Part shown: one piece after another, positions 2,089-21,690 of the stretch
Numbering within the stretch: the first letter of the stretch is position 1
Layout: each line of letters begins with the position of its first letter
IMG/VR virus record: IMGVR_UViG_3300009174_000013
Location: 1-31,873 of that record
Direction: 5' to 3' (one strand)
Origin: a virus
DNA length: 31,873 nt
Program-made: the position numbers and the translations under genes
The notes under the pieces: model-generated
Seen by the model: the letters and a program-made list of their open reading frames with translations, nothing else
The model's database searches: none
What the model was told of the DNA's origin: nothing

Positions 2089-2212
2089 GTTTTACCTCGA
2101 CTCGTTTACGCCTCAGGCTCGACTTGATTGCAACGACGATGAGTCCGAGCACTCCCCATCGCTTTACGGTAGCCGTCTCCTTCGGGCTCGGCTCGTCCCT
2201 CAGGGGATTCAT
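1970..2212 (-). CDS. Possible small protein coupled to the SPFH gene (uncertain)
   Basis: ATG 2212 overlaps the stop codon of the SPFH gene as ATGA, a translational-coupling pattern used repeatedly in this genome. The first 45 residues have a short hydrophobic stretch (WGVLGLIVVAI) followed by basic residues, as in a small membrane protein. The rest overlaps the next gene out of frame for 119 bases and looks non-native (His/Arg-rich). It is either a real short gene with an extended tail or a chance frame. Confidence 0.3.
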   Translation of the reverse strand: MNPLRDEPSPKETATVKRWGVLGLIVVAIKSSLRRKRVEVKHAGNHEQEIDPRHTGVGYVHDLPDVQRFHPRRDEGHRRP

Positions 2213-3042
2213 TTCTGGGCAACGTTGATAAACGGCAACGCTCCTCCGTTGACGTTCGGCAAGTGCCCGTCCCACTTCTCGATGGCATTGAGCTGAACGA
2301 GTCCGGGGTTATCCTTTAGCGCTTGACCCCGCAGAGCGAGTGCCTTTGCCTCGGCCTCGGCATTTACCAGCCGGGCCTTCGCATCGCCCTCCGCCTTGGC
2401 GACTTCCTTCTGAGCTTCCGCTTCGGTTTGGGCTACTTCGTTGTGTCGACGTTCGGCCATCTGCGTCGCAGCAATCTTGGCGTTAATCCCCTGTTCGACT
2501 TGCGGTGGCAAGCGCATAGCCCCGATCAGGTAGACCTTTTCGACTACGAGACCGATGGGAGCAACCGCAGCCTTGACCCTATTCTGAACCGCCGTAACCA
2601 GATCGGCCTTCTTCGTGCCGTAGATATCTTCGATTGCCATCGTAGAGCCGATCTCGACGAAGCCGTCACGGACCATATTATGGATATACAGGTCGGTGAT
2701 CTCGTCGATGCCCTTGCGGTACTTCTGGAAGAGCACGGAAACCATATTAGGGTCTACGTGGTAAGTAATTCCCAGGGAGGTAGAGACCGCCATGCCTTCT
2801 TTCGACTGGAAGCTGATGTACTCGTTGTTCGTAGCGTCCCAAGTACGGGTCTGCGTAAACGTCGGGAAGAGGTAGATATCCTGGTTGATTGATAACCAGT
2901 ACCGACCGGGCCCAACCTGTTGAGCTTGAACTCCCTTGTCGGAGCCGTAAAGATCGACCTTGATCCCTACGTTCCCCACCGGCACCTTCTCGACGCTGCA
3001 ACCGGCCAGCAGCAGTACGAACAGCAATGCGAACTTTCTCAT
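2209..3042 (-). CDS. SPFH/band-7 (prohibitin-like) lipoprotein
   Basis: 277 residues from ATG 3042, with AGGTGG just upstream. A short hydrophobic signal ends in the lipobox LLAGC, so Cys15 would be lipidated and the protein anchored in a membrane. The SPFH domain follows (roughly 20-200), with the typical TRTWDATNNEYISFQSKEG, VSTSLGITYHVD and VYLIGAMRLPPQVEQGI segments. Next comes the usual long Ala/Glu/Lys coiled coil (AAKIAATQMAERR to EAEAKALALRGQ). SPFH proteins form large rings on membranes and control proteases or membrane order. The gene is coupled by ATGA to a two-helix membrane protein upstream. A role in altering the host envelope during infection is inference. Confidence 0.9.
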   Translation of the reverse strand: MRKFALLFVLLLAGCSVEKVPVGNVGIKVDLYGSDKGVQAQQVGPGRYWLSINQDIYLFPTFTQTRTWDATNNEYISFQSKEGMAVSTSLGITYHVDPNMVSVLFQKYRKGIDEITDLYIHNMVRDGFVEIGSTMAIEDIYGTKKADLVTAVQNRVKAAVAPIGLVVEKVYLIGAMRLPPQVEQGINAKIAATQMAERRHNEVAQTEAEAQKEVAKAEGDAKARLVNAEAEAKALALRGQALKDNPGLVQLNAIEKWDGHLPNVNGGALPFINVAQK

Positions 3043-3242
3043 TTTGCCACCTTTTTGATTAGATCCCGTACCCAAAACTTCCACGTAATGACTCCGTAGA
3101 TAGTCATTAAGGCTACCCCTGTCACTACCGAGAGATCGTCCCGAGCCGACATCAGGAACGGCACCAGGAATATCAGTACTATCAGGGTGAGGATATACGC
3201 CCACCACTTTAGCTCCCGTCGCTTCTGCGGTCTAATTAACAT
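3039..3242 (-). CDS. Small membrane protein with two transmembrane helices
   Basis: 67 residues from ATG 3242, which has a near-perfect AGGAGG site. After a basic start (MLIRPQKRRELKWW) come two hydrophobic segments, about residues 14-31 and 38-55, and a basic tail (RDLIKKVAK). Its stop overlaps the SPFH start as ATGA. The pairing suggests a membrane partner of the SPFH protein. Holin-like function is another possibility, but no endolysin is seen nearby. Confidence 0.75.
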   Translation of the reverse strand: MLIRPQKRRELKWWAYILTLIVLIFLVPFLMSARDDLSVVTGVALMTIYGVITWKFWVRDLIKKVAK

Positions 3243-4729: not shown

Positions 4730-4805
4730 TGGCATACCCGGAGGGAGTCGAACCCCCAACCTTCGGTTTTGGAGACCGATGCTCTACCAGTTGAGCTACG
4801 GGTAC
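4730..4805 (-). tRNA. tRNA-Trp (anticodon CCA), with encoded CCA end
   Basis: A full cloverleaf can be drawn. The acceptor stem GTACCCG pairs with CGGGTAT (one G-U). The D arm contains GCTC..GAGC, the anticodon stem TCGGT/ACCGA encloses the loop CTCCAAA with anticodon CCA, and the T arm GGGGG-TTCGACT-CCCTC follows. The discriminator is G and is followed by a genomic CCA. G73 and the CCA anticodon are the usual bacterial tRNA-Trp identity elements. It reads UGG only, so it gives no sign of stop-codon recoding. It lies between two minus-strand genes and is probably cut out of the operon transcript. Confidence 0.95.
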
Positions 4806-9526: not shown

Positions 9527-10134
9527 GACTGCCCCACATCCGGAGCGCGCCCCGGCGGCAGCTGGTTGTAAAGGTGCTCGAAGGTATCCCGACGCCGCTT
9601 GCTCTCGGCAGCCACGGAGCTACCCCCTGTAACCATGCCAGAGCGCTTCTCTTGGAAGAGCAACGTACGCAGATCCTCGAGCTGGTCATTCGTAAGCGAG
9701 AGGGTCAGATTACGGTAGGAGGGAAGGCCCTCCAGGTTAAACTCCTGCCGTTTGTTCCAAGGCTTCCAGTTTATCAGGGTGGAGATCTCGGGCCACTTAC
9801 CCTCAAACGTCAAGATACGGTCGTCCAGGCCAACGAACGCTTTCGGCTTGCAGGGGGGGAACCGGAGAATACGATGAGCTATATCGGAACGCTCAGTAGT
9901 ATCTGCGTGGTCCTCGAACCAAGCCTTCATCGCATCGCGGCCCTCTTGGGTCTCCGAGCGGGTGGAGTAGATCTCGATCACGAAGTATTCGCTTGCGGCT
10001 TCCAGGAATTCCCACATACCCGGCACCGGGTCGTCTGGAATTACGGTAGGCCCCTGCCAAGGAGACGTATAGGAGTGGCATACTCCGTCAAAGTCTAACG
10101 ACAGCGTTTTCTTTCCGGGGGATTTTTCTGACAT
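9523..10134 (-). CDS. HAD-superfamily phosphatase
   Basis: 203 residues. ATG 10134 is preferred over an upstream in-frame start because GAGGA lies eight bases before it and HAD motif I follows at once (LSLDFDGVC, Asp14 and Asp16). Motif II is IYSTRS and the late acidic motif is VGLDD. The C-terminal 65 residues (SYRNLTLSLTNDQLEDLRTL onward) are an extra unrecognised tail. Small phage HAD enzymes often remove phosphate from nucleotides or DNA ends; which one applies here is unclear. The gene overlaps the polymerase end by 47 bases. Confidence 0.85.
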   Translation of the reverse strand: MSEKSPGKKTLSLDFDGVCHSYTSPWQGPTVIPDDPVPGMWEFLEAASEYFVIEIYSTRSETQEGRDAMKAWFEDHADTTERSDIAHRILRFPPCKPKAFVGLDDRILTFEGKWPEISTLINWKPWNKRQEFNLEGLPSYRNLTLSLTNDQLEDLRTLLFQEKRSGMVTGGSSVAAESKRRRDTFEHLYNQLPPGRAPDVGQS

Positions 10135-12670
10135 TTTTCGGGTCCTCATAGGCTTTCCCGGCACCCCAACGGCCGATTTCAATTTCGGACTCCATCGGGA
10201 CGACGGTACTGACTTTAAATAAATCAAATAGATCAGGCCGACGCATGATAGCACGAACACGAGGTAAAACTTCATCGCGATATTCCGGGCGGAAGATTCC
10301 GAGCAAGGCATCGTGGTGCTCTCCGACCAGCATCAACTTATCGTGTGGGATTGTCTCTTCTATCTCGACGAGAGCACAAGCCTTCCAGTCTCCTATGGTA
10401 CCTTGAACCGGAGAGTTAATAGCTTGCCGCTCAGCTTCCATTCTGAGATCCTTATCCCTTGAATAAATTCCCGGCAGCCTTCGAAGTCTACCGAACAGGT
10501 TCCTAACGTACCCATCGATGCGGCAAAGCTTCTTTTGCTTCTCGTGCCACGGTTCGATCCCGGCATATAGCTCAAAGTAAGCTGTTCGGAAGTCGTGGGC
10601 TTCTTCCCAGTTGCAGTCCCAGTCGTACTTCGTCTTGGCTTGCTGGATGAATTTATTCTCGTACATGCCGAAGACGAAGCCGAAGTTGATTGCTTTTGCT
10701 TTCTTGCGGCCTTCCTTCCAGGGCTTCCAGAGTTCGATTGCGGCATTGTGTCCTCTGCTCGATAGGATCTCGATGGCTTCGGTCAGAGTAATATCACGAG
10801 GCTTTACGCCCTCCAGCTCCGACGCGGTAACGATTGTCTGCTTAGTATACTCCTTCGACCGACCGCTGCCGATCATATACATCAAGGTTCGCCAGTGGAC
10901 GTCTTGTCCTCCGGGACGAAAACAACTGACAAGCTCAATGTCGCGTGATAATTCTGCTGCGATTCTAAGTTCAGCTTGCGAGAGATCCGCTTGAAAAAAA
11001 TCCCATCCGGGAGGTGCGGTGGCGAGATTCCTAAGAGTTCCATCTCTAGGGATCTGATGCAGGCGAGAAGCGTATCTCCCGGTAACAGTACCGTGGATCT
11101 TATATCCAAGGTATAGACGTCCTTCGTGGATAAACTCTTTCCATCCCTCGATATAGGTTCCAAGGAATTTCTCCTTCTCGCGGAATTTCACGAGCTGTTC
11201 GGCTACCGGGTGCTGATGCTTGAGTTCTACTATCGCGTCCTCGCCGGTCGACAGAGCCCCGGTTTTCGTCTTGACAGTAGTAGTCAGTCCGAGAGTATCG
11301 TACAGGAACGCTCCTACCTGCTTCGGAGAGTTCCAGTTAATCAACTTGCCGTTATTATGCTTGCGCACCAGGGCATCGAGACCCCGCTTTATCTCATCCC
11401 GTTCGGCTGTAATCTGCTTCTCGACAATAGCGTACTGCTTCATATCGAGCGTAATGCCTCGGCCTTCTATCGCGAAGAGAGCGCGAGAGGCCCGCATTGT
11501 CAGCTTATAGAACAGACGCTTGATCTGAGCGTTCTCGGGCAGGTTCAGCCGTTCCGAGAATATCTGCTTTAGCAGGTAGGTATAGGCGCCGTCGAAGGCA
11601 GCATACCTCAGGTACTCCATTCGCTTCCCTTCGATATGGAGGAACTTCCCCTGTTTCTCTGCCTTGGGGATATCGTACTCTGGAGCGCCGCACTCGTTTC
11701 TAGCCATCGTCTTGAGATCGTGATCGACGTTCTCATCCAGAATATGAGAGGCGAGCATCGTGTCGAAGTGCAGCTCGAAAGTGACACCGTAGGTCTCGAA
11801 CATCCAGTGCTGGTCGAACTTGCCGTTTTGGGCTATGGCGAGCTTGTCGGTCTCCTTCGCGATTCGGACGAGATCTGTGAGAACCTGACGGACTCCTCCT
11901 GGCTGGTCGTGCAGCGGCATTCCCGGCATATCGAGCGGGAAAACCCAAGCAATCTTTTCCAAGCCGATCGATAGACAGCGTATTTTGCCCTTTTTATCAA
12001 ACGGGAAGAGGCCGGTGGTCTCCGTATCATAGCTAAACTCCGGTGCTGCGATGAATTGCTCTAGGAATACCGAGAGAGTCTTGCTGGTAACTAGCCTATA
12101 CCTTGGGAGCTTGTCCTCCCTCAGATTTCCGTCCATGAATTCCCGCAGTCTCCTCAAGTCCCGCTGTAACGCAGGCAACTTTGAAGGATCGCGTAAGGTA
12201 TACGCCGGGTGGAAGGCTGGCATACCCCACAAGTCGGCAAGGTTCACCAGACTTCCATGGTCCAAGGTTATCTTGGATTTCTTTAGCACCGACTTCGATG
12301 AAAATCGACCCAGCGTCAAGACAAATTTCAAGCCAAGAGATCGTATTTCCCGATCCAGATACTTCCGACATGCTTTCAACTCCTCTGGTTTAGGATCGCG
12401 ATTGTCCGGCGGGCGGCACTTGACTACGTTCGTAATGACGTAATCGCGGATGCCTGCCTGCTCAAGCTCGTGGCGGATTAATCGACCGCTATCGCCGATA
12501 AAGGGCCTGCCTTGCGCGTCTTCCTGGCGGCCCGGGGCTTCCCCTATGACGAGAACTTCCGGGGGGCCTCGTCCTACCCTCTCCGCAGGCAAGCAGACCG
12601 TCTTGGCGGTCTTATGCAGCGGGCAGTCTCGGCACTCCGGGTTATAGATCGGCGGGGCTACCTCCTTCAT
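10088..12670 (-). CDS. Uracil-DNA glycosylase (family 4 type) fused to DNA polymerase A
   Basis: 860 residues. Residues 1-185 form a family-4 UDG with Fe-S cysteines 13, 16, 85 and 101, GEAPGRQED at 43-51 and FHPAY at 153-157. The 3'-5' exonuclease follows with DTE 215-217, N282/D286 and Y356/D360. The polymerase domain has motif A ADLSQAELR (Asp562), the O-helix RKKAKAINFGFVFGM (Arg655, Lys659, Phe663, Phe667) and motif C HHDA (Asp787). In E. coli Pol I numbering Tyr766 is Phe here and Glu883 is Ala. A UDG-PolA fusion is, to my knowledge, also found in SPO1-like phages. It is the phage replicase, with built-in uracil sensing or removal. Its start overlaps the dCMP deaminase stop (ATGA). Confidence 0.95.
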   Translation of the reverse strand: MKEVAPPIYNPECRDCPLHKTAKTVCLPAERVGRGPPEVLVIGEAPGRQEDAQGRPFIGDSGRLIRHELEQAGIRDYVITNVVKCRPPDNRDPKPEELKACRKYLDREIRSLGLKFVLTLGRFSSKSVLKKSKITLDHGSLVNLADLWGMPAFHPAYTLRDPSKLPALQRDLRRLREFMDGNLREDKLPRYRLVTSKTLSVFLEQFIAAPEFSYDTETTGLFPFDKKGKIRCLSIGLEKIAWVFPLDMPGMPLHDQPGGVRQVLTDLVRIAKETDKLAIAQNGKFDQHWMFETYGVTFELHFDTMLASHILDENVDHDLKTMARNECGAPEYDIPKAEKQGKFLHIEGKRMEYLRYAAFDGAYTYLLKQIFSERLNLPENAQIKRLFYKLTMRASRALFAIEGRGITLDMKQYAIVEKQITAERDEIKRGLDALVRKHNNGKLINWNSPKQVGAFLYDTLGLTTTVKTKTGALSTGEDAIVELKHQHPVAEQLVKFREKEKFLGTYIEGWKEFIHEGRLYLGYKIHGTVTGRYASRLHQIPRDGTLRNLATAPPGWDFFQADLSQAELRIAAELSRDIELVSCFRPGGQDVHWRTLMYMIGSGRSKEYTKQTIVTASELEGVKPRDITLTEAIEILSSRGHNAAIELWKPWKEGRKKAKAINFGFVFGMYENKFIQQAKTKYDWDCNWEEAHDFRTAYFELYAGIEPWHEKQKKLCRIDGYVRNLFGRLRRLPGIYSRDKDLRMEAERQAINSPVQGTIGDWKACALVEIEETIPHDKLMLVGEHHDALLGIFRPEYRDEVLPRVRAIMRRPDLFDLFKVSTVVPMESEIEIGRWGAGKAYEDPKNVRKIPRKENAVVRL

Positions 12671-13098
12671 ACGAGTCTCGTCAGTACCCCGGCTCGCTGG
12701 AGTTCCTCAAGTGGTTTAGTATCCCGGTACTCCCGAGAATAGAAAACCTCCCTGATACCTGCATTGATAATGAGCCGAGCGCAATCGAGGCACGGGGAGT
12801 CGGTCGATACCATCGTAGCTCCGTTGGTAGCAATCCCGTACTTGGCTGCGAAAGCGATGGCGTTCGCCTCCGCATGGACTGCCCGTTTACAGGGAGGTCC
12901 CCCAGAGTAGCACTCGTCACCGCAATGCGGTAGATGAGACGGCGCCCCGTTGTACCCCGACGATACAACGCGACCATCGATGGCAATGACCGCACCGACT
13001 TGGAGCCTGTTGCACGTCCCCTCGTGAGCTTCGATATGAGCGTGCGAAAGGAGCTTCTGGATTCTCTTTCGTTCGGGTGCATGCGGATCAGGCTCCAT
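12667..13098 (-). CDS. dCMP deaminase
   Basis: 143 residues from ATG 13098 with GGGAGG upstream. The zinc site is HAE at 75-77 (His75, catalytic Glu77) and PCLDC with Cys103 and Cys106. The insert with CGDECYSGGPPC (59-70) is typical of the dCMP deaminase branch rather than cytidine deaminase. The product deaminates dCMP to dUMP, which ThyX, encoded just upstream, can methylate. It overlaps ThyX by 11 bases and the polymerase gene by 4. Confidence 0.93.
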   Translation of the reverse strand: MEPDPHAPERKRIQKLLSHAHIEAHEGTCNRLQVGAVIAIDGRVVSSGYNGAPSHLPHCGDECYSGGPPCKRAVHAEANAIAFAAKYGIATNGATMVSTDSPCLDCARLIINAGIREVFYSREYRDTKPLEELQRAGVLTRLV

Positions 13099-13837
13099 TT
13101 TGCGCCTCCCAGAAGAGTTGATGCGTATGCGGGAAGTACTGCCGGATCAGTTCGTTTACTGCGTGTGCGTACTGCCGGATTTCCCACTGCGCCTTCTCAT
13201 CGAGACGCAAAGTCAAGAAGCCGAGCCAATTGCGCAGGTTCGCCGTCGCGCGCATCGTCGAGAAATGCCCGACCGGCATACCGACTCTTGCCAGCTCCTT
13301 CGGCACTCCCATCTTCAGCCCTAGCTGATAGAACTTCTCGGCGTAGGCGTAAAGATCGTCCAGACAAGTAAGCCAGTCCTCAGCGTCCTTATCAGTAAGC
13401 TTGCGGGCCGATGTGACCGTTTGTGCCTGCTTGTTCCGCGTGGTAACTACCGAGCGCTCGAGGAGGTTCAGCAGGTTCGGCCGGTAGTAGTCGGCTTCCA
13501 GAGGTTTATAGCGGGCGCTCGCCTCGTTGTAGCTCTGCGTCCGGTGCCGGTGCCATTCCCGGAAAACCATAATCGGGGCGCATACCTCAATCGTCATCCC
13601 CGCAGCTTCGAACGGGGTCGATTGATTTGCCTGATGGTTGAAGAGCGTCCGCATCAGTCCCATATCCTCGTCCCATCCCTTAAACGAGCCTTGCGTACTC
13701 TGTCGGGCCGCTTCGACGATTCCGACTTCGTAGTCTACAGCATCTTCCCGCTGCAAGCGTTCTACTCCTCCGGCCTTACCGGTCCCCCACGCTTCGATGA
13801 ACTCTACGTATCCAAGGTCCAGAACCGTAACTTTCAT
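13088..13837 (-). CDS. thyX: Flavin-dependent thymidylate synthase ThyX
   Basis: 249 residues from ATG 13837, preceded by AAGGAG. The ThyX signature RHR-x7-S is present as RHRTQSYNEAS (97-107), with the following SARY. The enzyme makes dTMP from dUMP using FAD, NADPH and methylenetetrahydrofolate. ThyX supplies dTMP on its own, so the thymidylate-synthase-like proteins encoded upstream are free to do something else. Confidence 0.95.
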   Translation of the reverse strand: MKVTVLDLGYVEFIEAWGTGKAGGVERLQREDAVDYEVGIVEAARQSTQGSFKGWDEDMGLMRTLFNHQANQSTPFEAAGMTIEVCAPIMVFREWHRHRTQSYNEASARYKPLEADYYRPNLLNLLERSVVTTRNKQAQTVTSARKLTDKDAEDWLTCLDDLYAYAEKFYQLGLKMGVPKELARVGMPVGHFSTMRATANLRNWLGFLTLRLDEKAQWEIRQYAHAVNELIRQYFPHTHQLFWEAQNGA

Positions 13838-13893: not shown

Positions 13894-14430
13894 TCACTGC
13901 TTGAATATTTTCTGTAGCTTGGGGAAAAGCTTTTCGTTCGAGTTTCCCTTGAGTGCGAAGACGTTGGCTTTCGTAGCCATGATCGTAACCGTTCTCCACG
14001 GAGTAAACTCGTGAGAAAGGAATCCAAAGAGCGTAAGATCATACGCAAATCCCCCGATCAGCTCCAGGCTGCGATAGAATACGGTGAGGTCCCTACCCCT
14101 GATAACCCCGCCTACTAGGCAAAAGTCCCCGCGCTCGCCTTTATAGCCGTGCCCGCTTTTTGACACGCCGAACCTTATGGACGCTTCTCCCTTGGTCTCG
14201 AGCTTCTTTCTCGCTCGCATCACCTCTTCGGGGTCCAGGTAGTTCTTGACCCGGTTTGCGTACCTTCTTTGACTTATCTCTCTTATGGCTAGAGCGTACT
14301 TGTCGTCCCACTCCATCCGGAATATCAAACCGGGGTAGACTCGGGACTGGTATTCGGGCACCAGAGTATTCCAGTGATCCGGGATCGGCAATGAAGTTAA
14401 GGCTTTTGTCGTCTGGGTAACGTTCGTCAC
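13894..14430 (-). CDS. Divergent thymidylate-synthase-superfamily paralogue B
   Basis: 178 residues from GTG 14430, with AAAGGA seven bases upstream. Its core keeps the superfamily spacing: Cys104 in GDFC, then YRSLE with Arg120, then Asp131 eleven residues later. That Asp sits where dUMP-using synthases have Asn and dCMP hydroxymethylases have Asp. The His of the late ribose-binding motif is missing (KANVF). The N-terminal half aligns by eye with the protein at 16247-17086, so it looks complete. Activity is unknown; it may use a changed substrate or be a non-catalytic partner. The first 290 bases overlap another frame. Confidence 0.65.
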   Translation of the reverse strand: MTNVTQTTKALTSLPIPDHWNTLVPEYQSRVYPGLIFRMEWDDKYALAIREISQRRYANRVKNYLDPEEVMRARKKLETKGEASIRFGVSKSGHGYKGERGDFCLVGGVIRGRDLTVFYRSLELIGGFAYDLTLFGFLSHEFTPWRTVTIMATKANVFALKGNSNEKLFPKLQKIFKQ

Positions 14431-14671
14431 GGAATATTCCTTTGCGGCAGATGTCGACGGCTTCGGCTAGGGTCTCCAGCCACCAGGCATCTGCCGTAGT
14501 ATAGCCGTCTACCCAATAACGAATCAGTTTATCCCGGCCCTTACCTTTCGTCCCCGAAACATCGAGAGTGAGTCTCGGGTACTTCTCCGAGCGCCAGATT
14601 TGAAAGTAATGCCTCCGGGGTCCGTCAAAGAAGCCTACCGGCTTAAACGGGTGCGGAGCCTTCTTTACCAC
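14141..14671 (-). CDS. Hypothetical protein overlapping paralogue B
   Basis: 176 residues from GTG 14671, with GGAG eight bases upstream. The first 80 residues look like a genuine domain (RHYFQIWRSEKYPRLTLDVSG, then WWLETLAEAVDICRKGIF). After position 14430 the frame runs for 290 bases inside paralogue B. The last 60 residues are Arg/Lys-rich and look like the off-frame of B. The true product may end by frameshift into B or simply carry this basic tail. Its position between two thymidylate-synthase-like genes suggests a shared pathway. Confidence 0.5.
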   Translation of the reverse strand: MVKKAPHPFKPVGFFDGPRRHYFQIWRSEKYPRLTLDVSGTKGKGRDKLIRYWVDGYTTADAWWLETLAEAVDICRKGIFRDERYPDDKSLNFIADPGSLEYSGARIPVPSLPRFDIPDGVGRQVRSSHKRDKSKKVRKPGQELPGPRRGDASEKEARDQGRSVHKVRRVKKRARL

Positions 14672-15482
14672 CGAGACGTCTCCAGTCGTTTATGAAGCAG
14701 TGGAGGGAAGCGACGTGCATCGTAAAGAGCCCCGGCTTTACCGTATTCCAGCAAGGATTGCGTTTCCGCAGCTCTCCCAGGCACCAGAGGAGCAAACGTA
14801 CAGCAAGGTAGCAGTCGTCTGCCCAATGGCGAATAACGTCGCAACTACGGATGTAGTAAGTAATATGCAGATGATCGTGACGCATAAGAAAGTGGTACCC
14901 GAGAGTACAGGGCCTTCGACCCTTGCAGGTCCCATCCTCAGGAAACCATACAGGAAGGTAAGCTTGACGGCTAAGAGGATCGTCAGCGAGATGAGCAATA
15001 AGATCATTTAAGTCTCCGTATTCAAATCGGACCCCCCAACGGGGATGGATCGTATCGATATACTGAGTAGACTCATCTACGACCCCCTCTGAAGTCTTTC
15101 CGGCATATTTCGGCCAGAAGCGCTCCATATACGTATGATCGAACTTGCCGCCCTCCTGCACGCGAAACTTGTCGGCGTTATTGCTCCAAGGCCAGGATAG
15201 CCAGGAGTTACCGGGGTTGAGCGGCTGACCCCCGACACGTTCCTCGAAGTGCTCGTCTGCCCATGGTAGGTTCGGGGTTATGTCTTGCCGGTAGTAGTCC
15301 AGATTCTCTTCTCCGCGCAGCGGCACAACGAAGGAGTGTCCGTAGATTTCCTTCATTGCCATCTCTGGCTTAGTTGAGACGTCTATTCCCTGCCACCGGG
15401 GAGCGCGAACCGTATACGCCTGATGTAGGAACATCTCGTGCATCTTGAGTCGGGCTTCGAGAAACGTGCCGTAGGTCGCCAT
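14643..15482 (-). CDS. dCMP hydroxymethylase-type thymidylate synthase homologue
   Basis: 279 residues from ATG 15482, with GAGGA upstream. The C-terminal half is a clear thymidylate-synthase fold: SRQAYLPVWFPEDG, catalytic Cys192 in PCTLGYHF, Arg212 in IRSCD, Asp215, Asp223, and the late VASLHCFINDW. The Cys-to-Arg (20) and Arg-to-Asp (11) spacings equal those I recall for T4 gp42. Asp223 replaces the Asn that reads dUMP, which points to dCMP. The expected reaction is hydroxymethylation of dCMP with methylenetetrahydrofolate. The first 140 residues are less conserved. Simple methylation of dCMP cannot be excluded. Confidence 0.85.
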   Translation of the reverse strand: MATYGTFLEARLKMHEMFLHQAYTVRAPRWQGIDVSTKPEMAMKEIYGHSFVVPLRGEENLDYYRQDITPNLPWADEHFEERVGGQPLNPGNSWLSWPWSNNADKFRVQEGGKFDHTYMERFWPKYAGKTSEGVVDESTQYIDTIHPRWGVRFEYGDLNDLIAHLADDPLSRQAYLPVWFPEDGTCKGRRPCTLGYHFLMRHDHLHITYYIRSCDVIRHWADDCYLAVRLLLWCLGELRKRNPCWNTVKPGLFTMHVASLHCFINDWRRLGGKEGSAPV

Positions 15483-15487
15483 TTCAG

Positions 15488-15925
15488 TTAATCCTCTTCT
15501 TCGTTGGCATGCAGCTTTGCATGCTCCTCACGCCGTTTCTCGTCGCGCAGAACGCGGCGAATGCTCTTGGCCGGATCCAGATCTACCGTCTCCCTGGTGA
15601 GCATCTCGAGGGACTCCTTTGTCAGGTAGATGTTCTTTCCGAGCATCTGTGCCCACTTGATCTCCCGCTTCGTGGATTCCCCGACGTAGCCCTCATCATC
15701 GGTAATCAGCACTACCCCATCCGACTCCTGGATCTTCCGTAAATGAACGAGATCCAAAGTTTCCTTCTCGAAGGGAGTCAGAGGGTCCGGGCTTCCAGGG
15801 GTATAGTCCGAACTGCTCGACCGGGTTGCGATAGAATATACCACGTGCCCGGCCAGGGACAAGATCCGGTTCAATTCGAGATACCGGTCCATAAAGCGAC
15901 TCGATCCAATTAAGCATAATTTCAT
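15488..15925 (-). CDS. Nucleoside 2-deoxyribosyltransferase-like protein
   Basis: 145 residues from ATG 15925 with GGAG upstream. The Rossmann-like start (MKLCLIGSSRF), the central SDGVVLITDDEGYVGES and the helix TKREIKWAQMLGKNIYL follow the plan of the deoxyribosyltransferase/SLOG-like superfamily, in which the Glu of the GES segment is catalytic. Such enzymes exchange or cleave bases on deoxyribonucleosides or nucleotides. The position directly upstream of the dCMP-hydroxymethylase-type gene suggests a role in nucleotide salvage or in handling modified nucleotides. The exact substrate cannot be read from the sequence. Confidence 0.65.
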   Translation of the reverse strand: MKLCLIGSSRFMDRYLELNRILSLAGHVVYSIATRSSSSDYTPGSPDPLTPFEKETLDLVHLRKIQESDGVVLITDDEGYVGESTKREIKWAQMLGKNIYLTKESLEMLTRETVDLDPAKSIRRVLRDEKRREEHAKLHANEEED

Positions 15926-16257
15926 GCCTTCTTCTCCGGTACTGCATCTTCTGGTTTAGCAGAGGTAGAGACCTTAGCCTGGATGTCGGCTATCTCGTAC
16001 TCCTGCTTGAAGCGAGCGAGGTTGATTGCGTGGATGGAACCGTCCGGTGCGAGATAAACGACGTCCCCCGCGTGGACTACCTTCGTACCCCGATCCTCCT
16101 TTGGATCGTTGATAACGAAAGTCGTATCCGGCTTCGCCGCAGGCTCGGCTACCTTCTGCAGCCAAATCGGCATCGATTCCGCCGGTCGTTCGTTGACAGC
16201 CTTGCCCTTGGTATTGTGCCAAGCCTGCAAGGTGATCGCCTTGCGTCTAATCTTCAT
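15922..16257 (-). CDS. Hypothetical protein, 111 aa
   Basis: Starts at ATG 16257 with GAGGAAG upstream, overlapping its upstream neighbour by 11 bases and its downstream one by ATGA. The N-terminus is basic; the centre (DRGTKVVHAGDVVYLAPDGSI) looks like a small beta-rich unit. The tail is Lys/Glu/Ala-rich. No family is recognised. Its tight packing in the nucleotide operon suggests it is expressed with those enzymes. Confidence 0.65.
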   Translation of the reverse strand: MKIRRKAITLQAWHNTKGKAVNERPAESMPIWLQKVAEPAAKPDTTFVINDPKEDRGTKVVHAGDVVYLAPDGSIHAINLARFKQEYEIADIQAKVSTSAKPEDAVPEKKA

Positions 16258-17086
16258 CGTCTTCCTCCTTACGGGCGCGTTGCCCTTTTGGTACGTAGGA
16301 CTTGTCGTGGAAGTCCTTTGGGAGCGGGCGACCGGTCTTGCGGTGTAGGGGCTCCAGGAAGTCCCGAACCTCTCTGATTTGTTTGGCCGTGCCGCGCTCC
16401 CAAAGGTACTTGTGGGATACCCGCTCGGGAGAGAACGGGTGAAACTGGTCCTGCTTGTAGCTGGCCTTGAGCAGAAACCGGGTCGTGCGAATGAAAAACT
16501 CGGGATCGACCTTGCTCGTAAGCGCCAGGAATTTCAGCAGATCGATCTTGTCGATGAGATACGGAAAGTACGCCCCCGATAGGGCACAGTTGGCGAAGCG
16601 GAAGCGGCAGACGTCAGGCTCGATCTCGAAACGCTCTGTCAGTAGCTTTCTCAAGAGCCAAACGTCCGCCGCAAACTTCAGGACGGCTTCTGTCGTGCGG
16701 TACTGCACTTCGACGCTATTCCAGTCCTTATTGCGCGATATGACGAGGGAGAGCATGCACCAACCCTGTGAGCGAGAATCCTTCGGCGCTCCGCGCAGAT
16801 TGACCGCGACGGACGTGTATTTATTACCCGCCCGCCTTCCAAGGACGGATAGTACACGTCCAAATTCGTCTTCATTGATGTAATTCCGGTAAAGTTGTTT
16901 TTCTTTCCCCTTCCCATAACCCCACTCGGCTAGATCCCAGTCGGGAAGATAGTCCGACTCCAGAGTAATGTTCTGGACGACTTTTCCTATCGCCTGAGTG
17001 CCTACAGCCTTTCCGTAGACGATAGCTTTGTAAAGTGGAAGAGCCCAGAAACCGGGGTCTTCCGTTCTGGTAATTACCTCGGTCAT
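16247..17086 (-). CDS. Divergent thymidylate-synthase-superfamily paralogue A
   Basis: 279 residues. The superfamily core can be read as Cys110 in SQGWCMLSL, Arg130 in VQYRTTE and Asp141 in FAADVWLL. The spacings of 20 and 11 match those of the dCMP-hydroxymethylase-type neighbour. The late His of the ribose-binding motif is absent (CALSGAYFPY), so the substrate pocket differs. About 100 extra C-terminal residues end in a charged tail (RKEEDDED). Paralogue B shares its N-terminal half (YRNYINEDEFGRVL against RVKNYLDPEEVMRA). The start overlaps the MazG-like gene as ATGA. Superfamily membership is by motif spacing only. Confidence 0.6.
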   Translation of the reverse strand: MTEVITRTEDPGFWALPLYKAIVYGKAVGTQAIGKVVQNITLESDYLPDWDLAEWGYGKGKEKQLYRNYINEDEFGRVLSVLGRRAGNKYTSVAVNLRGAPKDSRSQGWCMLSLVISRNKDWNSVEVQYRTTEAVLKFAADVWLLRKLLTERFEIEPDVCRFRFANCALSGAYFPYLIDKIDLLKFLALTSKVDPEFFIRTTRFLLKASYKQDQFHPFSPERVSHKYLWERGTAKQIREVRDFLEPLHRKTGRPLPKDFHDKSYVPKGQRARKEEDDED

Positions 17087-17760
17087 TTGCCTTGCGAGAA
17101 TCCGAGGTTGTCGGATACTCCCTTCAGAGCGTCTTCCTTCCTCTTCTGGTTCGTTTGCTGCTTGAGGAAGTAGTGGTGATGCAGAATGCTCGCGTCGATG
17201 CCCGTGCAGATGCAGGCAGTCACGAACGAGAACCAGGCGACCCCGAAGAAATGCTTCACCCGTCCCGGATCGCTCGGCCGGTTATCCGTACGCCAGGGCC
17301 TCTGCTTGAACTCCATCATCAGATGCGCGAAGGCAGTAAGGAAGAGTCCCCACGCTTGCTGCGCCGTGAGCCGCATGGGATACATGTTAGCCCGATCAAA
17401 CGAAGCCGCAAGATAGTCGCCACCGTCGGGCAGCAGCATATTGGCGTCTCCGCCCGTCGCGACTTCCGTGGAGCTGACGCCGCAGATAATCGCAAGCTCC
17501 GCGAAGAAATGCATGACATCGGCTACTTCCTCCCTGTACTCGTTGACGTTCCCCTTGTCGTACTCCTCCAGTGCCTCGTAGACTTCTTCGGAGATGCGCC
17601 ACGCGAGCAGGCGGAACTCCTCCTGAGCATGCCGGGAGTCGAGGTTGAACGGGAATTTGTTCTTCTCGAAGAATTCGTTGTGCTCGTAAATGGGTGCGAG
17701 GGAACGCAACAGCTTTTCCTGCGCGTCAAAGATCTCATAGAGATGATCGGGCTTCTCCAC
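17083..17760 (-). CDS. MazG/dimeric dUTPase-like nucleotide pyrophosphohydrolase
   Basis: 225 residues from GTG 17760, with AGGAG six bases upstream. The all-alpha NTP pyrophosphohydrolase signature is ExxE at 59-62 (EEVYEALEEY) and ExxD at 78-81 (REEVADVMHFFAELA). These residues bind magnesium in the dimeric dUTPase/MazG group. The enzyme probably hydrolyses dUTP, or the unmodified dNTP whose use the phage wants to prevent. The C-terminal 120 residues are unlike the standard short MazG domain. Neighbours are a dNMP kinase and thymidylate-synthase-like genes. Confidence 0.8.
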   Translation of the reverse strand: MEKPDHLYEIFDAQEKLLRSLAPIYEHNEFFEKNKFPFNLDSRHAQEEFRLLAWRISEEVYEALEEYDKGNVNEYREEVADVMHFFAELAIICGVSSTEVATGGDANMLLPDGGDYLAASFDRANMYPMRLTAQQAWGLFLTAFAHLMMEFKQRPWRTDNRPSDPGRVKHFFGVAWFSFVTACICTGIDASILHHHYFLKQQTNQKRKEDALKGVSDNLGFSQGK

Positions 17761-17761
17761 G

Positions 17762-18277
17762 TTAGGCTCCTAGAAACAGTTGGTTGAGATCGGCGGGGGG
17801 ACTCGTCCAGTCGTAGTCTACGACTTTCACGCCGAGACGGCGCAAGGATTCCATCGACTGGTCGTATGCTTGGTAGAGAGCCCAGTAGTGCTCGTGAACT
17901 CCGTCCATCTGCCGTTCGCGGCGGGATGCTTTCTGGGCTACCTCGAGATCCGGCTTGCAGTAGATGATTCTACTGGCGGTATTGGCTATCGCGTCGAGTG
18001 CGCGGTCGCGGGAATAGGCTTCTTCTATATAGCTCTTACCCCTGGTAATGGGACCGTAGATAGGCTCCGATATCAGGGGGTGCCTATCGGCTATCAGGGG
18101 GATTTCGTACTGAGACCCTCGGGCGAGGATCTGTATCGTCATATAAAGGTCTACGGACCCCCGAGGTGGACCGGAGCGAGCGAATAGCCAGCATAGCTGC
18201 TTGGCCTGCTGCCGGAAGTTCTGGATGAGCGTTGTCTTACCTGCGCCATCGACGCCCTCTACCACGATTAACGGCAT
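17762..18277 (-). CDS. Deoxynucleoside monophosphate kinase (thymidylate-kinase-like)
   Basis: 171 residues from ATG 18277, preceded by AAAGGGGA. The P-loop is GVDGAGKTT (8-16), followed by the kinase-typical ADRHPLISEPIYG and a later lid-like basic segment (KASRRERQMDGVHEHY). It phosphorylates a deoxynucleoside monophosphate, most likely dTMP or a modified dNMP made by the downstream enzymes. It is the first gene of the long minus-strand nucleotide and replication operon that starts at the divergent region 18278-18471. Confidence 0.85.
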   Translation of the reverse strand: MPLIVVEGVDGAGKTTLIQNFRQQAKQLCWLFARSGPPRGSVDLYMTIQILARGSQYEIPLIADRHPLISEPIYGPITRGKSYIEEAYSRDRALDAIANTASRIIYCKPDLEVAQKASRRERQMDGVHEHYWALYQAYDQSMESLRRLGVKVVDYDWTSPPADLNQLFLGA

Positions 18278-18471: not shown

Positions 18472-20649
18472 GTGCCGAATCCTACTAGAAAAACTGTATC
18501 GGATGCAATAGGGCACGCTCGCCATTGGCTTACTACCTACGGTATTCGCACCGTACCCCTACTACCCCGGACTAAGAAACCCCGTGGCGAGGACGGGACG
18601 GCTAAGGCGAAGGACTGGAATAAGCTCCGGGTTACGAAGGCGAACATCGACCAGTACTTCCGTCCAACTGATAATATCGGAGGACTGTGGGGAGAGCCGT
18701 CTAACTGGATTATCGATATCGACCTGGATTGCCCTGAAGCTCTGATCGCCTCGCAGTTTTACCTCCCAAAGACATACACCTACGGTCGTACAGGTGCTCC
18801 TGCGTCCCACTTCCTCTACCGTTGTGAGGGCGCCATAACCCGAAAGTATCAATCTAGGCAGATGGGTACTATCGTCGAGATACGAAGCAGTGGTACTCAG
18901 AGTGTGCTTCCCCCCAGTATTCATCCTTCGGGCGAACGCTACAAACCATTCTCGAAAAGCGACATCTCCGAGATCCGGTGGGGCAATCTCGATAATAGAG
19001 TCAAGAAGCTCGCTGCGGTTGGCCTCGCCGCGAAGTATTACCCTGAGAAGGGTGGGAGGCATGATTATGTCCATGCTATGACCGGCGCTCTCCTCTGGGC
19101 CCGATGGTCGGATGACGACGTGCGGAGGTTCATGCAAGCTCTGATAGCCTGTCAGAATGATGGGGAGACCAAGGATCGGGATGGGAGTGTAGAAAATACT
19201 ATCGAGCACTATCATAAAGGAGATAACGTCCAAGGTTGGCCTAGTCTATCGGCATTCATGCCGGGACAGGACTTGATGCTGCTGCAGCGTTGGGTTGGTT
19301 CGAAGAACATGCCGGATAACTCAGAAGTGGCTCCGGATACGATTGCGGCAGAGCTACCCCCGCGTATGAAAACGAATCTCTTCGAGGTTCCGGGACTTGT
19401 AGGACGGATTGCGAAGTGGGCTGGTAAAATATCATATGCTAAACAACCTCTCTTTGAAATAGCGTCGGGCTTAATGTCAGTAGCCTTGGCGTCGGAGAAC
19501 AAGTACCTCGTCGCAGGGTATAACACTCCCCTCCAACCCTATATGATGCTGCTTGCCCCAACTTCGGGTGGCAAAGAGTCTGCGATGGACGCTGTGATGC
19601 AGATAGCGGCGCGGGTCGGGCTCAAGAATCATATCGTCTCGGGGATGCAGAGTTACCATGCTATGCTCGATGTCCTCTCGAAGCCCCCGCACGTACTGTG
19701 CTGGCATTGGGACGAGGCAGCGCGGAAGCTGCGCACTGCGGTGCGCTCGCAAGGGGGCCAGGACTATCAGATCCTGACTTACCTGCTTTCCCTCTACGGC
19801 AAAGGCAACAAAACAGTACCGGGGATGCCCGGACGTAAGTCCTCTATAGAGGCTATCGAGCATCCCTTCTTCACGGTCCTGGCAGCCGCGCAGCCGAACC
19901 AGCTTCTCGAAGCCATCTCGGCGAGCGATATGAGTATGGGCCTCGTCAATCGCTTCCTGTTGCTGGACGCGGGTAACGAACTCGCCCGAACTAATGAAAT
20001 GCGGTCCAATATCTTCCCCAGCGTAATCGAGGAAGGACTCAAAGCTCTTAAGGAGGCCAAACCCCGGCCCGCTGATCCGGCGAGCAGTGAGGAGCAAGGG
20101 TTCATCTGGGTAAACTTCGAGAATCAGGAAGCTTTTCAAATATTCGCCGATTTCGAAGTGGCGGCTCGAGAGTGGGGTCATAAGGAAGAAGGCTCCGGTG
20201 AGATGTGGGGTAGAGCAAATCAGAATGCGCTAATCTATGCTGGAATCGTCGCCGTCGGGTGTAATCCTAAGCGACCGTTGATTACTATAGACATAGCTCA
20301 GTGGGCAGTCGAGTTTGTTACATGGTCCGTCGAACGCTGGATCCAACGGATTGAGCAGAGTTCGAGCCGGTCGGTGACAGAGGCTGCAAGTAAGACAGTA
20401 GAGAAGTTCATCCGGGGTGTCCGCAATTTTAAGCATTTGGCTAAGCCCGGCCGAGAGCAGGATTTGGCGAAGGAAGGCAAGATGCCACGCTCGATGCTAA
20501 CTCGCATGTGTCGGCATCTGCGCAGCCGGGACCTGGACGACGTGCTCGCTCAGCTCTGCCTCGCCGATCTGGTGGGAGCATCCGATGAGGACGGCATCGA
20601 CTGTTACTGGGCAAAGCAAGTCGTAAAACAAAAGAAGGCATCAGGCTAA
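18472..20649 (+). CDS. Primase-polymerase (AEP) fused to helicase-like ATPase
   Basis: 725 residues from GTG 18472 with AGGGGGG seven bases upstream. Residues 10-160 form a bifunctional Prim-Pol domain: HARHWLTTYGIRTVPLLP, the metal-binding DIDLD (82-86), SH at 112-113, and the typical ending VEIRSSGTQSVLPPSIHPSG. From about 300 a DUF3987-like P-loop ATPase follows (APTSGGKES 362-370 as Walker A, then CWHWDEA as Walker B). The protein would prime replication and unwind DNA for the polymerase. It is the only replication gene on the plus strand and converges with the J-domain gene, their ends overlapping by 9 bases. Confidence 0.9.
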   Translation: MPNPTRKTVSDAIGHARHWLTTYGIRTVPLLPRTKKPRGEDGTAKAKDWNKLRVTKANIDQYFRPTDNIGGLWGEPSNWIIDIDLDCPEALIASQFYLPKTYTYGRTGAPASHFLYRCEGAITRKYQSRQMGTIVEIRSSGTQSVLPPSIHPSGERYKPFSKSDISEIRWGNLDNRVKKLAAVGLAAKYYPEKGGRHDYVHAMTGALLWARWSDDDVRRFMQALIACQNDGETKDRDGSVENTIEHYHKGDNVQGWPSLSAFMPGQDLMLLQRWVGSKNMPDNSEVAPDTIAAELPPRMKTNLFEVPGLVGRIAKWAGKISYAKQPLFEIASGLMSVALASENKYLVAGYNTPLQPYMMLLAPTSGGKESAMDAVMQIAARVGLKNHIVSGMQSYHAMLDVLSKPPHVLCWHWDEAARKLRTAVRSQGGQDYQILTYLLSLYGKGNKTVPGMPGRKSSIEAIEHPFFTVLAAAQPNQLLEAISASDMSMGLVNRFLLLDAGNELARTNEMRSNIFPSVIEEGLKALKEAKPRPADPASSEEQGFIWVNFENQEAFQIFADFEVAAREWGHKEEGSGEMWGRANQNALIYAGIVAVGCNPKRPLITIDIAQWAVEFVTWSVERWIQRIEQSSSRSVTEAASKTVEKFIRGVRNFKHLAKPGREQDLAKEGKMPRSMLTRMCRHLRSRDLDDVLAQLCLADLVGASDEDGIDCYWAKQVVKQKKASG

Positions 20650-20658
20650 CCCCCTGAT
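20640..20658. terminator. Short hairpin at the convergent stop codons (possible weak terminator)
   Basis: ATCAGG (20640-20645) pairs with CCTGAT (20653-20658) around seven bases that include the primase stop codon. There is no T-run on either strand, so termination would be weak at best. It is the only hairpin at this gene junction. Confidence 0.3.
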
Positions 20659-21690
20659 ACCCTCGTCCTTCGCGGTATTTAGATCTTTCATCTTCTCGGT
20701 AGCCTCCAGCTTCTCCTTCGGATCGGTGATCCGGTCCGGATGGAGAGCCGAGATCTTCTTACGCCAAGCTTTCTTTATCTCCGCTGCGTTGGCCTTCGGG
20801 GATATCTCTAGGACTTCGAACCACGGCGCCCGCGTCTTATTGCGGGCCTTTGGCCGGGCTTTCTCCTGCTCCTGCTCCCCTTGCCTATGCTGCCCCCCGT
20901 TCGGCCCGCTGCGGCCGCCATATGCACGGCGGAATAGCTCCTCGAAAGGGTTTCCCCCCATGCTATCCCGGAAATCCTGCTGGTACCGCCGGGCCCACTC
21001 CTCGTATCCCATGCCGAAAGCGTCCTTGAAATCTTGTGAGAAGTCCCCTTCCATTCCACTCCGACGTGATTTAGCTCCGGAGTCTGATCCCGCAGCCGAC
21101 TCACGACGATACGCTTCCTCACGCTCTCTGCGGCGTTGCTGCCACATGCCCTCCTGCCTGGCCCGCTCCCTCTCTGCCTCGGCTCGAGCCTTGGCATTCT
21201 CTTTCTCACGCTCCTCGCGTTGGCGCTTTGCCTCCGCCCTGGCAGCCTGCTCTCTCTCACGTCTTTTCTGATCGGCGGCCCTACGCCACTCTTTCAACTC
21301 TTCGAGCTTGCGAATGGTTTCGTCGAACATCCGTTTCGTAATGACAGCTTCTACCCCGGAGTGAACATACTTCTTCTGGTGCTCTAGCCATCCCTTTAGA
21401 TCATCGCAAGTAACCCCGGTGATATTGTCCGCGTACCGGCGAGTGATATCCTCGAACTCGGTGATTCGATCCATTATCTCTAGGAACCCAGCCATGATCT
21501 GCGAGTCGGTCCCGAAGTACGACTGACCAGACTCGTAGAGCTTTTCATTATCTATGTGAAAGATAATGCGCGAGTATTTACCATCGGGGCTCCTCTTGCT
21601 TTCGACGGTACTGCAGCGCAGCAATGCGCGTAGCTGCTCTAGGGAGGGGGGGCCGCTACCCCTATAGCGGGGGTCTTTCTCGTCGGGCAT
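20641..21690 (-). CDS. J-domain protein with long coiled coil
   Basis: 349 residues from ATG 21690 with GGAG seven bases upstream. Residues 1-125 are unrecognised. Residues 125-200 are a very charged Arg/Glu/Ala helix (KRREREQAARAEAKRQRE). A Gly/Arg-rich linker follows, and the last 63 residues are a J domain (PWFEVLEISPKANAAEIKKAW) with HPD at 317-319. J domains stimulate the ATPase of DnaK. A C-terminal J domain behind a coiled coil suggests that the phage recruits host DnaK to a phage complex, perhaps for replication or assembly. Confidence 0.88.
   Translation of the reverse strand: MPDEKDPRYRGSGPPSLEQLRALLRCSTVESKRSPDGKYSRIIFHIDNEKLYESGQSYFGTDSQIMAGFLEIMDRITEFEDITRRYADNITGVTCDDLKGWLEHQKKYVHSGVEAVITKRMFDETIRKLEELKEWRRAADQKRREREQAARAEAKRQREEREKENAKARAEAERERARQEGMWQQRRREREEAYRRESAAGSDSGAKSRRSGMEGDFSQDFKDAFGMGYEEWARRYQQDFRDSMGGNPFEELFRRAYGGRSGPNGGQHRQGEQEQEKARPKARNKTRAPWFEVLEISPKANAAEIKKAWRKKISALHPDRITDPKEKLEATEKMKDLNTAKDEGIRGLA

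Follow-up and report, generated by a model that had tools for sequence, protein, structure and literature searches.

Divergent thymidylate synthase-superfamily proteins paired with a cytosine-directed homologue in phages: a candidate second step in cytosine modification

Several enzymes of the thymidylate synthase (TS) superfamily act on cytosine nucleotides. In phage T4, the deoxycytidine monophosphate (dCMP) hydroxymethylase gp42 stands beside the kinase gp1 and the deoxycytidine triphosphatase (dCTPase) gp56, and sugars are added on the DNA. AfhB, reported in 2025, is a flavin-dependent dCMP hydroxylase of phage HY126 (PDB 9IQU, 9IQC) with an orthologue, ORF048c, in RB69, and MilA is a cytidine monophosphate (CMP) hydroxymethylase of the mildiomycin pathway. 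The MetaGPA study described a phage system for 5-carbamoyloxymethylcytosine that combines a TS homologue with a carbamoyltransferase (PMC8670742). Here, we analyse IMG/VR record IMGVR_UViG_3300009174_000013, a phage record of 31.9 kb (31,873 nucleotides; hereafter the window), in which a minus-strand run of nucleotide genes extends from position 18277 down to 10088. Three TS-superfamily-like open reading frames lie in this run, as the initial annotation had reported: B, a cytosine-directed enzyme, and two divergent proteins, A and C (Table 1). Together with Y, a third branch from actinophages, A and C are a new and as yet uncharacterised branch within a known superfamily, and the pathway too is of a known kind.

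The locus resembles T4 in its set of pyrophosphatase, C5-modifying enzyme and deoxynucleoside monophosphate (dNMP) kinase and in the Asp at TS position 177. The likeness to AfhB lies in the TS fold, in a shared Cys (TS position 146), Arg (166) and Asp (177) and in a cytosine modification that would likewise be made at the dCMP level. AfhB differs in being a single gene and in its residue at TS position 169, which is Asn in AfhB, Asp in B and Glu in A and C. In RB69, the neighbours of the AfhB-like gene include no A/Y/C partner, and none of those tested proved to be a relative of A or C. MilA is a TS-superfamily cytosine enzyme too but acts on CMP, in antibiotic synthesis. T4 is not known to have an A/Y/C paralogue, nor is such a partner known for MilA. 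The MetaGPA system shares with the window a cytosine-reading TS homologue, deaminase and pyrophosphohydrolase neighbours and a second-step enzyme; that enzyme is a carbamoyltransferase acting on 5-hydroxymethylcytosine, whereas the second gene here encodes a TS-fold paralogue (PMC8670742). The initial annotation knew of no described system with this exact set. The open-access literature (few subscription papers were covered) yielded no account of the A/Y/C family, nor any measurement of bases in phages that carry it. The combination of A or Y with B is not unique to the window phage.

A, Y and C within the thymidylate synthase superfamily

A, C and Y (Muddy gp47, Yakult gp50) are homologues of one another. 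Profile comparisons give E values of 2e-12 for A and Y, 8e-7 for A and C and 4e-7 for C and Y, reaching 1e-12 for A+Y against C with larger sets, and by this measure the three are one family. Existing annotations call its members 'hypothetical protein' or, in two cases, 'pyrimidine hmase synthase'. Neither A nor C has a Pfam match, including PF00303, at E up to 5; NCBIfam gives none for A, C or Y, and a PDB sequence search with the A and C profiles found no relevant match.

An AlphaFold model of A built from 36 sequences (predicted local distance difference test score, pLDDT, 90.2; predicted template modelling score, pTM, 0.86) retrieves TS-superfamily chains in all top PDB rows of Foldseek, with E values down to 6.6e-6. 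In VIA-align, all 50 matches listed are chains of this superfamily (Z 10-13.5, 154-177 residues aligned). The best among them is AfhB 9IQU (Z 13.5, 3.6 Å over 175 residues), followed by AfhB 9IQC (13.1) and, as the next-best fold, MilA (12.1); TS reaches 10.8 and T4 dCMP hydroxymethylase 10.2. Among viral models, the A protein of PMBT14 comes first, then two uncharacterised proteins and then TS and hydroxymethylases. By predicted fold and by profile, A belongs to the TS superfamily.

Profile comparison extends this assignment. An A+Y+C profile from 131 non-redundant proteins was compared with the B profile, using as decoys about 50 families from the same loci plus reversed B. It reaches E 0.0018, against 0.037 for the best decoy and 0.46 for reversed B. 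Adding six phage TS sequences to the B profile brings the values to 3.2e-5 for A+Y+C, 0.0011 for A+Y alone and 1.6e-4 for C alone, and in the alignments to TS the conserved residues fall into the TS register: Arg and Asp, as well as Cys wherever the alignment extends to it. Early comparisons of A, C and Y with B using small profiles had stayed at noise level (E 0.015-0.49); the rise above the decoys is due to the larger alignments and the added TS sequences. Y and C thus appear to be divergent superfamily members, C through profile comparison only. Profile searches, which the initial annotation had named beforehand as a possible refutation, did not place A and C outside the superfamily.

Over the 131 proteins, conservation reaches 90% in no more than four columns, namely Tyr69, Cys110, Arg130 and Asp141 in A numbering, and Cys110 and Arg130 are invariant in 39 of 39 A-type proteins. 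The conserved Cys, Arg and Asp correspond to TS Cys146, Arg166 and an Asp in place of Asn177. This conservation is beyond chance, and a core confined to Tyr, Cys, Arg and Asp would fit catalysis. The Arg-Asp spacing is 11 in A (Arg130, Asp141) and in C (Arg120, Asp131, with Cys104), which bears out the earlier description of both proteins. It also holds for the loss of the late His: at the position of the ribose-binding His207, A and C have no conserved His, which is present in 72 of 76 Y proteins. The position of TS Asp169 is Glu in A and C and Tyr in Y.

With AfhB as the best structural match of A, A or Y might itself be a flavin-dependent, AfhB-like C5 hydroxylase of dCMP, with B hydroxymethylating in parallel or second. 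The A+Y+C profile also aligns with RB69 ORF048c (E 0.0054 over 177 columns), whereas T4 gp42 gives no such alignment. However, the Z values of AfhB and MilA differ little (within about 1.5), AfhB is a single gene in RB69, with neighbours that, where tested, are not A-like, and the dependence of A/Y on B described below would be left unexplained. We consider this arrangement improbable.

Protein B and its nearest described relatives

B matches PF00303 above the family cut-off and also phrog_160 (Table 1). Invariant in its family are Arg172, Cys192, Arg212, Asp215, Asp223 and His261, equivalent to TS positions 126, 146, 166, 169, 177 and 207. The residue set of a dCMP hydroxymethylase (Asp177 with Cys146, Arg166, Asp169 and His207) is thereby complete, with an Arg-Asp spacing of 11 and the late His retained. 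TS Asp169 is a folate contact. The Asp223 named by the initial annotation is confirmed, and Asp replaces the Asn177 that reads deoxyuridine monophosphate (dUMP) in every aligned B, with Thr or Ser at position 147 across the family. In MetaGPA, the two top-ranked markers of contigs with modified cytosine were an Asp at 177 and a change at 147 (PMC8670742). B is firmly a cytosine-directed TS-family enzyme.

Could these genes serve no base modification at all, and just reshape host nucleotide pools or make deoxythymidine monophosphate (dTMP)? The presence of ThyX and a dCMP deaminase would suit such a role. Yet dTMP is already made by ThyX, and the Asp in every aligned B is the MetaGPA signature of modified contigs (PMC8670742), so that we find this very unlikely.

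The reaction of B is less clear. The initial annotation called it a dCMP hydroxymethylase; the cytosine-reading residues stand, and the label 'hydroxymethylase' is not secure because B is nearer to AfhB than to T4 gp42. The B-family hidden Markov model scores 51 bits for RB69 ORF048c, which is nearly identical to AfhB, versus 32 bits for gp42, and hhalign gives 4.6e-11 versus 7.6e-7; gp42 is thus not the nearest dCMP enzyme of B. B rather than A might therefore be the AfhB-like dCMP hydroxylase, and the base a 5-hydroxycytosine derivative tailored by A/C, a variant compatible with our preferred explanation. Against it, position 169 is Asp in all aligned B proteins, as in T4, and the Asn of AfhB was found in none of them; furthermore, among the PDB matches of the B profile (MilA, TS, AfhB and T4 gp42), the best solved structure is a folate enzyme, MilA (2.7e-8). 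Hydroxylation by B is possible, if somewhat doubtful.

Dependence of A, Y and C on B

As the initial annotation had proposed, A and C are tied to a cytosine-reading TS-family enzyme, B beside them. Relatives of A lie directly upstream of B in phages of Pseudomonas, Serratia, Brevundimonas and Yersinia. Relatives of C adjoin B on its downstream side in Pseudomonas phages and lie a few genes farther downstream in Gordonia phage Yakult. Y, present in 85 records of the phage collection, occupies the place of A in actinophages (Muddy gp47, Yakult gp50, Shrew gp74, Zuko gp75). The finding reaches well beyond the window phage, with A or Y and B together in phages of these four hosts, of Gordonia, Mycobacterium and Streptomyces, and of others. 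Bacterial genomes scanned for A gave a single short metagenome contig only.

An A-based scan returned 34 loci, all of them with B, and a Y-based scan 80 loci, 78 with B and two on contigs that end right after Y. A single-protein scan of viral contigs for C found none; an alignment-based scan found ten loci, nine with B and the tenth on a contig of 5 kb. Wherever this could be assessed, in over a hundred phage loci, A, Y and C were never seen without B. B without A/Y occurs at 26 non-redundant loci, where it has different neighbours such as DNA methyltransferases. A/Y depends on B and not the reverse, as would be expected of a later step or of a subunit that needs B. At four of the loci without A/Y (L008, L010, L012 and L063), inspection by eye found B adjoining one protein that resembles a glutamine amidotransferase and one or two that resemble DNA methyltransferases, perhaps another cytosine-modification cassette.

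The usual cassette is kinase-pyrophosphatase-A/Y-B. A kinase lies near B in 109 of 130 A/Y loci versus 1 of 39 loci without A/Y, and a pyrophosphatase in 109 of 130 versus 9 of 39. Gene orders are A-B, A-B-C and Y-B, with B-A seen twice and A-B-A once. In locus L090 (7626-8615 and 10395-11162), a second Y/A-like protein stands downstream of B, and this A-B-A order parallels A-B-C.

TS enzymes are dimers in which each site uses residues of both subunits. A/Y (and C) might accordingly be partner subunits of B, forming mixed TS-type dimers or oligomers that tune specificity or activity with no catalysis of their own. A or Y always occurs with B, and the genes often overlap: a 4-nt overlap with B is found in 7 of 9 annotated records. 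On the other side, the sole columns conserved in the family are residues of catalytic type, no locus contains an A-B fusion gene, and the catalytic residues of B are all kept with or without A/Y. The idea that A supplies residues missing from B was rejected: B has its full set in every context, so no lost residue of B is made good by A/Y. We regard a purely structural partnership as rather unlikely. The catalytic-type conservation together with the complete B site in every context favours a later step.

Most likely, A, Y and C would catalyse a step that depends on the product of B, since B is present in every assessable A/Y locus and also occurs without them. Our preferred explanation, plausible but somewhat short of probable, is that the operon, much as in T4, produces a modified deoxycytidine nucleotide ahead of replication, and that A, C and Y derivatise the product of B. 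The candidate dCTP pyrophosphatase would supply dCMP, B would alter its C5 by hydroxymethylation or hydroxylation, and the dedicated dNMP kinase would hand the product of the B pathway to the polymerase. As predicted TS-fold enzymes that retain the nucleophilic Cys, the Arg that binds phosphate and the Asp that reads cytosine, A, C and Y would most likely bind the nucleotide made by B again, attack its C6 with their Cys and swap or derivatise the 5-substituent, so that the dCMP is modified further. Sequence or structure shows that A belongs to the superfamily, that the catalytic residues are conserved, that A/Y depends on B and that a kinase and a pyrophosphatase share the cassette, whereas the activity of A, C and Y, the product of B as their substrate, the kind of group added and the occurrence of the base in the DNA are inferred. 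A bolder form of the proposal is possible, and we put it forward with more reserve: A/Y/C would be a new TS-superfamily branch whose B-dependent reaction follows as a second step on a modified cytosine nucleotide, such as replacement of the 5-substituent via a covalent Cys adduct, and yields an undescribed cytosine base; the phages concerned would number well over a hundred, with Muddy and Gordonia phage GTE2 among them.

Several observations weigh against such a step. The tight pairing and the gene overlaps are also compatible with a B-A complex. The kinase contrast may stem from phage lineage, because the loci without A/Y belong to different phage groups and the search there covered just the surroundings of B. 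The ribose-binding late His is missing from A and C, C is also short, and its match to TS (1.6e-4) is only about eightfold better than its best decoy (0.0013). In favour of the step, the complete genomes of Muddy and PMBT14 contain no annotated glycosyl- or carbamoyltransferase, but further modifying enzymes may be hidden there because many of their genes are unannotated.

The gene run in the window and its wider meaning

The run also holds the ThyX (Thy1 1e-34), MazG-type and dNMP kinase genes of the initial annotation, and a dCMP deaminase besides (Table 1).

Table 1. Features of the minus-strand gene run in the window.
Feature	Coordinates	Strand	Evidence
dNMP (thymidylate-kinase-like) kinase	17762..18277	-	phrog_761 5e-16
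MazG/dUTPase_2-like all-alpha nucleoside triphosphate pyrophosphatase, candidate dCTPase	17083..17760	-	phrog_12184 2.8e-11; PF08761/PF03819 below cut-off
A, divergent TS-superfamily protein (Tyr69, Cys110, Arg130, Glu133, Asp141)	16247..17086	-	AlphaFold model, fold match, profile
Small protein without family match of weight	15922..16257	-	Pfam, PHROG
Nucleoside deoxyribosyltransferase-like protein, inserted between A and B	15488..15925	-	sequence motif, phage relatives
B, TS-family candidate dCMP C5-modifying enzyme (Cys192, Arg212, Asp215, Asp223, His261)	14643..15482	-	PF00303 7.7e-6, phrog_160 7e-28
C, short paralogue of A (Cys104, Arg120, Glu123, Asp131)	13894..14430	-	hhalign to A, to TS profile
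ThyX flavin-dependent thymidylate synthase	13088..13837	-	PF02511 1.1e-34
dCMP deaminase	12667..13098	-	phrog_174 9.6e-48
Family A DNA polymerase with N-terminal uracil-DNA-glycosylase domain	10088..12670	-	PF00476, PF01612, PF03167

The deoxyribosyltransferase-like gene lies in the run as described and outside the conserved cassette. One phage relative of its product is annotated as deoxyribosyltransferase, but the protein has no match in Pfam or PHROG; among phages, its nearest relatives belong to giant phages of Caulobacter and to Nostoc phage A-1 and not to the A/B phages. In a different frame, a minus-strand open reading frame of 176 amino acids (14141-14671) overlaps B at its end and a large part of C; the initial 80 residues span the B-C gap and look coding, and there is no family match. 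In the DNA polymerase I, residues 37-166 form the uracil-DNA-glycosylase-superfamily domain PF03167, fused to exonuclease and polymerase; the SPO1 polymerase has a similar fusion. Elsewhere on the minus strand are a Band-7/SPFH-domain protein (2209-3207; PF01145 5.9e-22; annotated lipoprotein in PHROGs), a protein with a C-terminal DnaJ domain (20641-21690; PF00226 1.4e-10) and one tRNA-Trp gene with anticodon CCA (4730-4805).

Cytosine replacement lets phages escape restriction and CRISPR. The pairing pattern suggests an extra step in building an altered DNA letter. If this is true, a TS-fold enzyme that tailors the nucleotide ahead of replication would open a new way to a modified base. A role would then also be assigned to a protein that carries the label 'hypothetical' beside 'thymidylate synthase' in nearly every annotated genome seen, including those of the cultivable phages Muddy, GTE2, Yakult, PMBT14 and Serbin.

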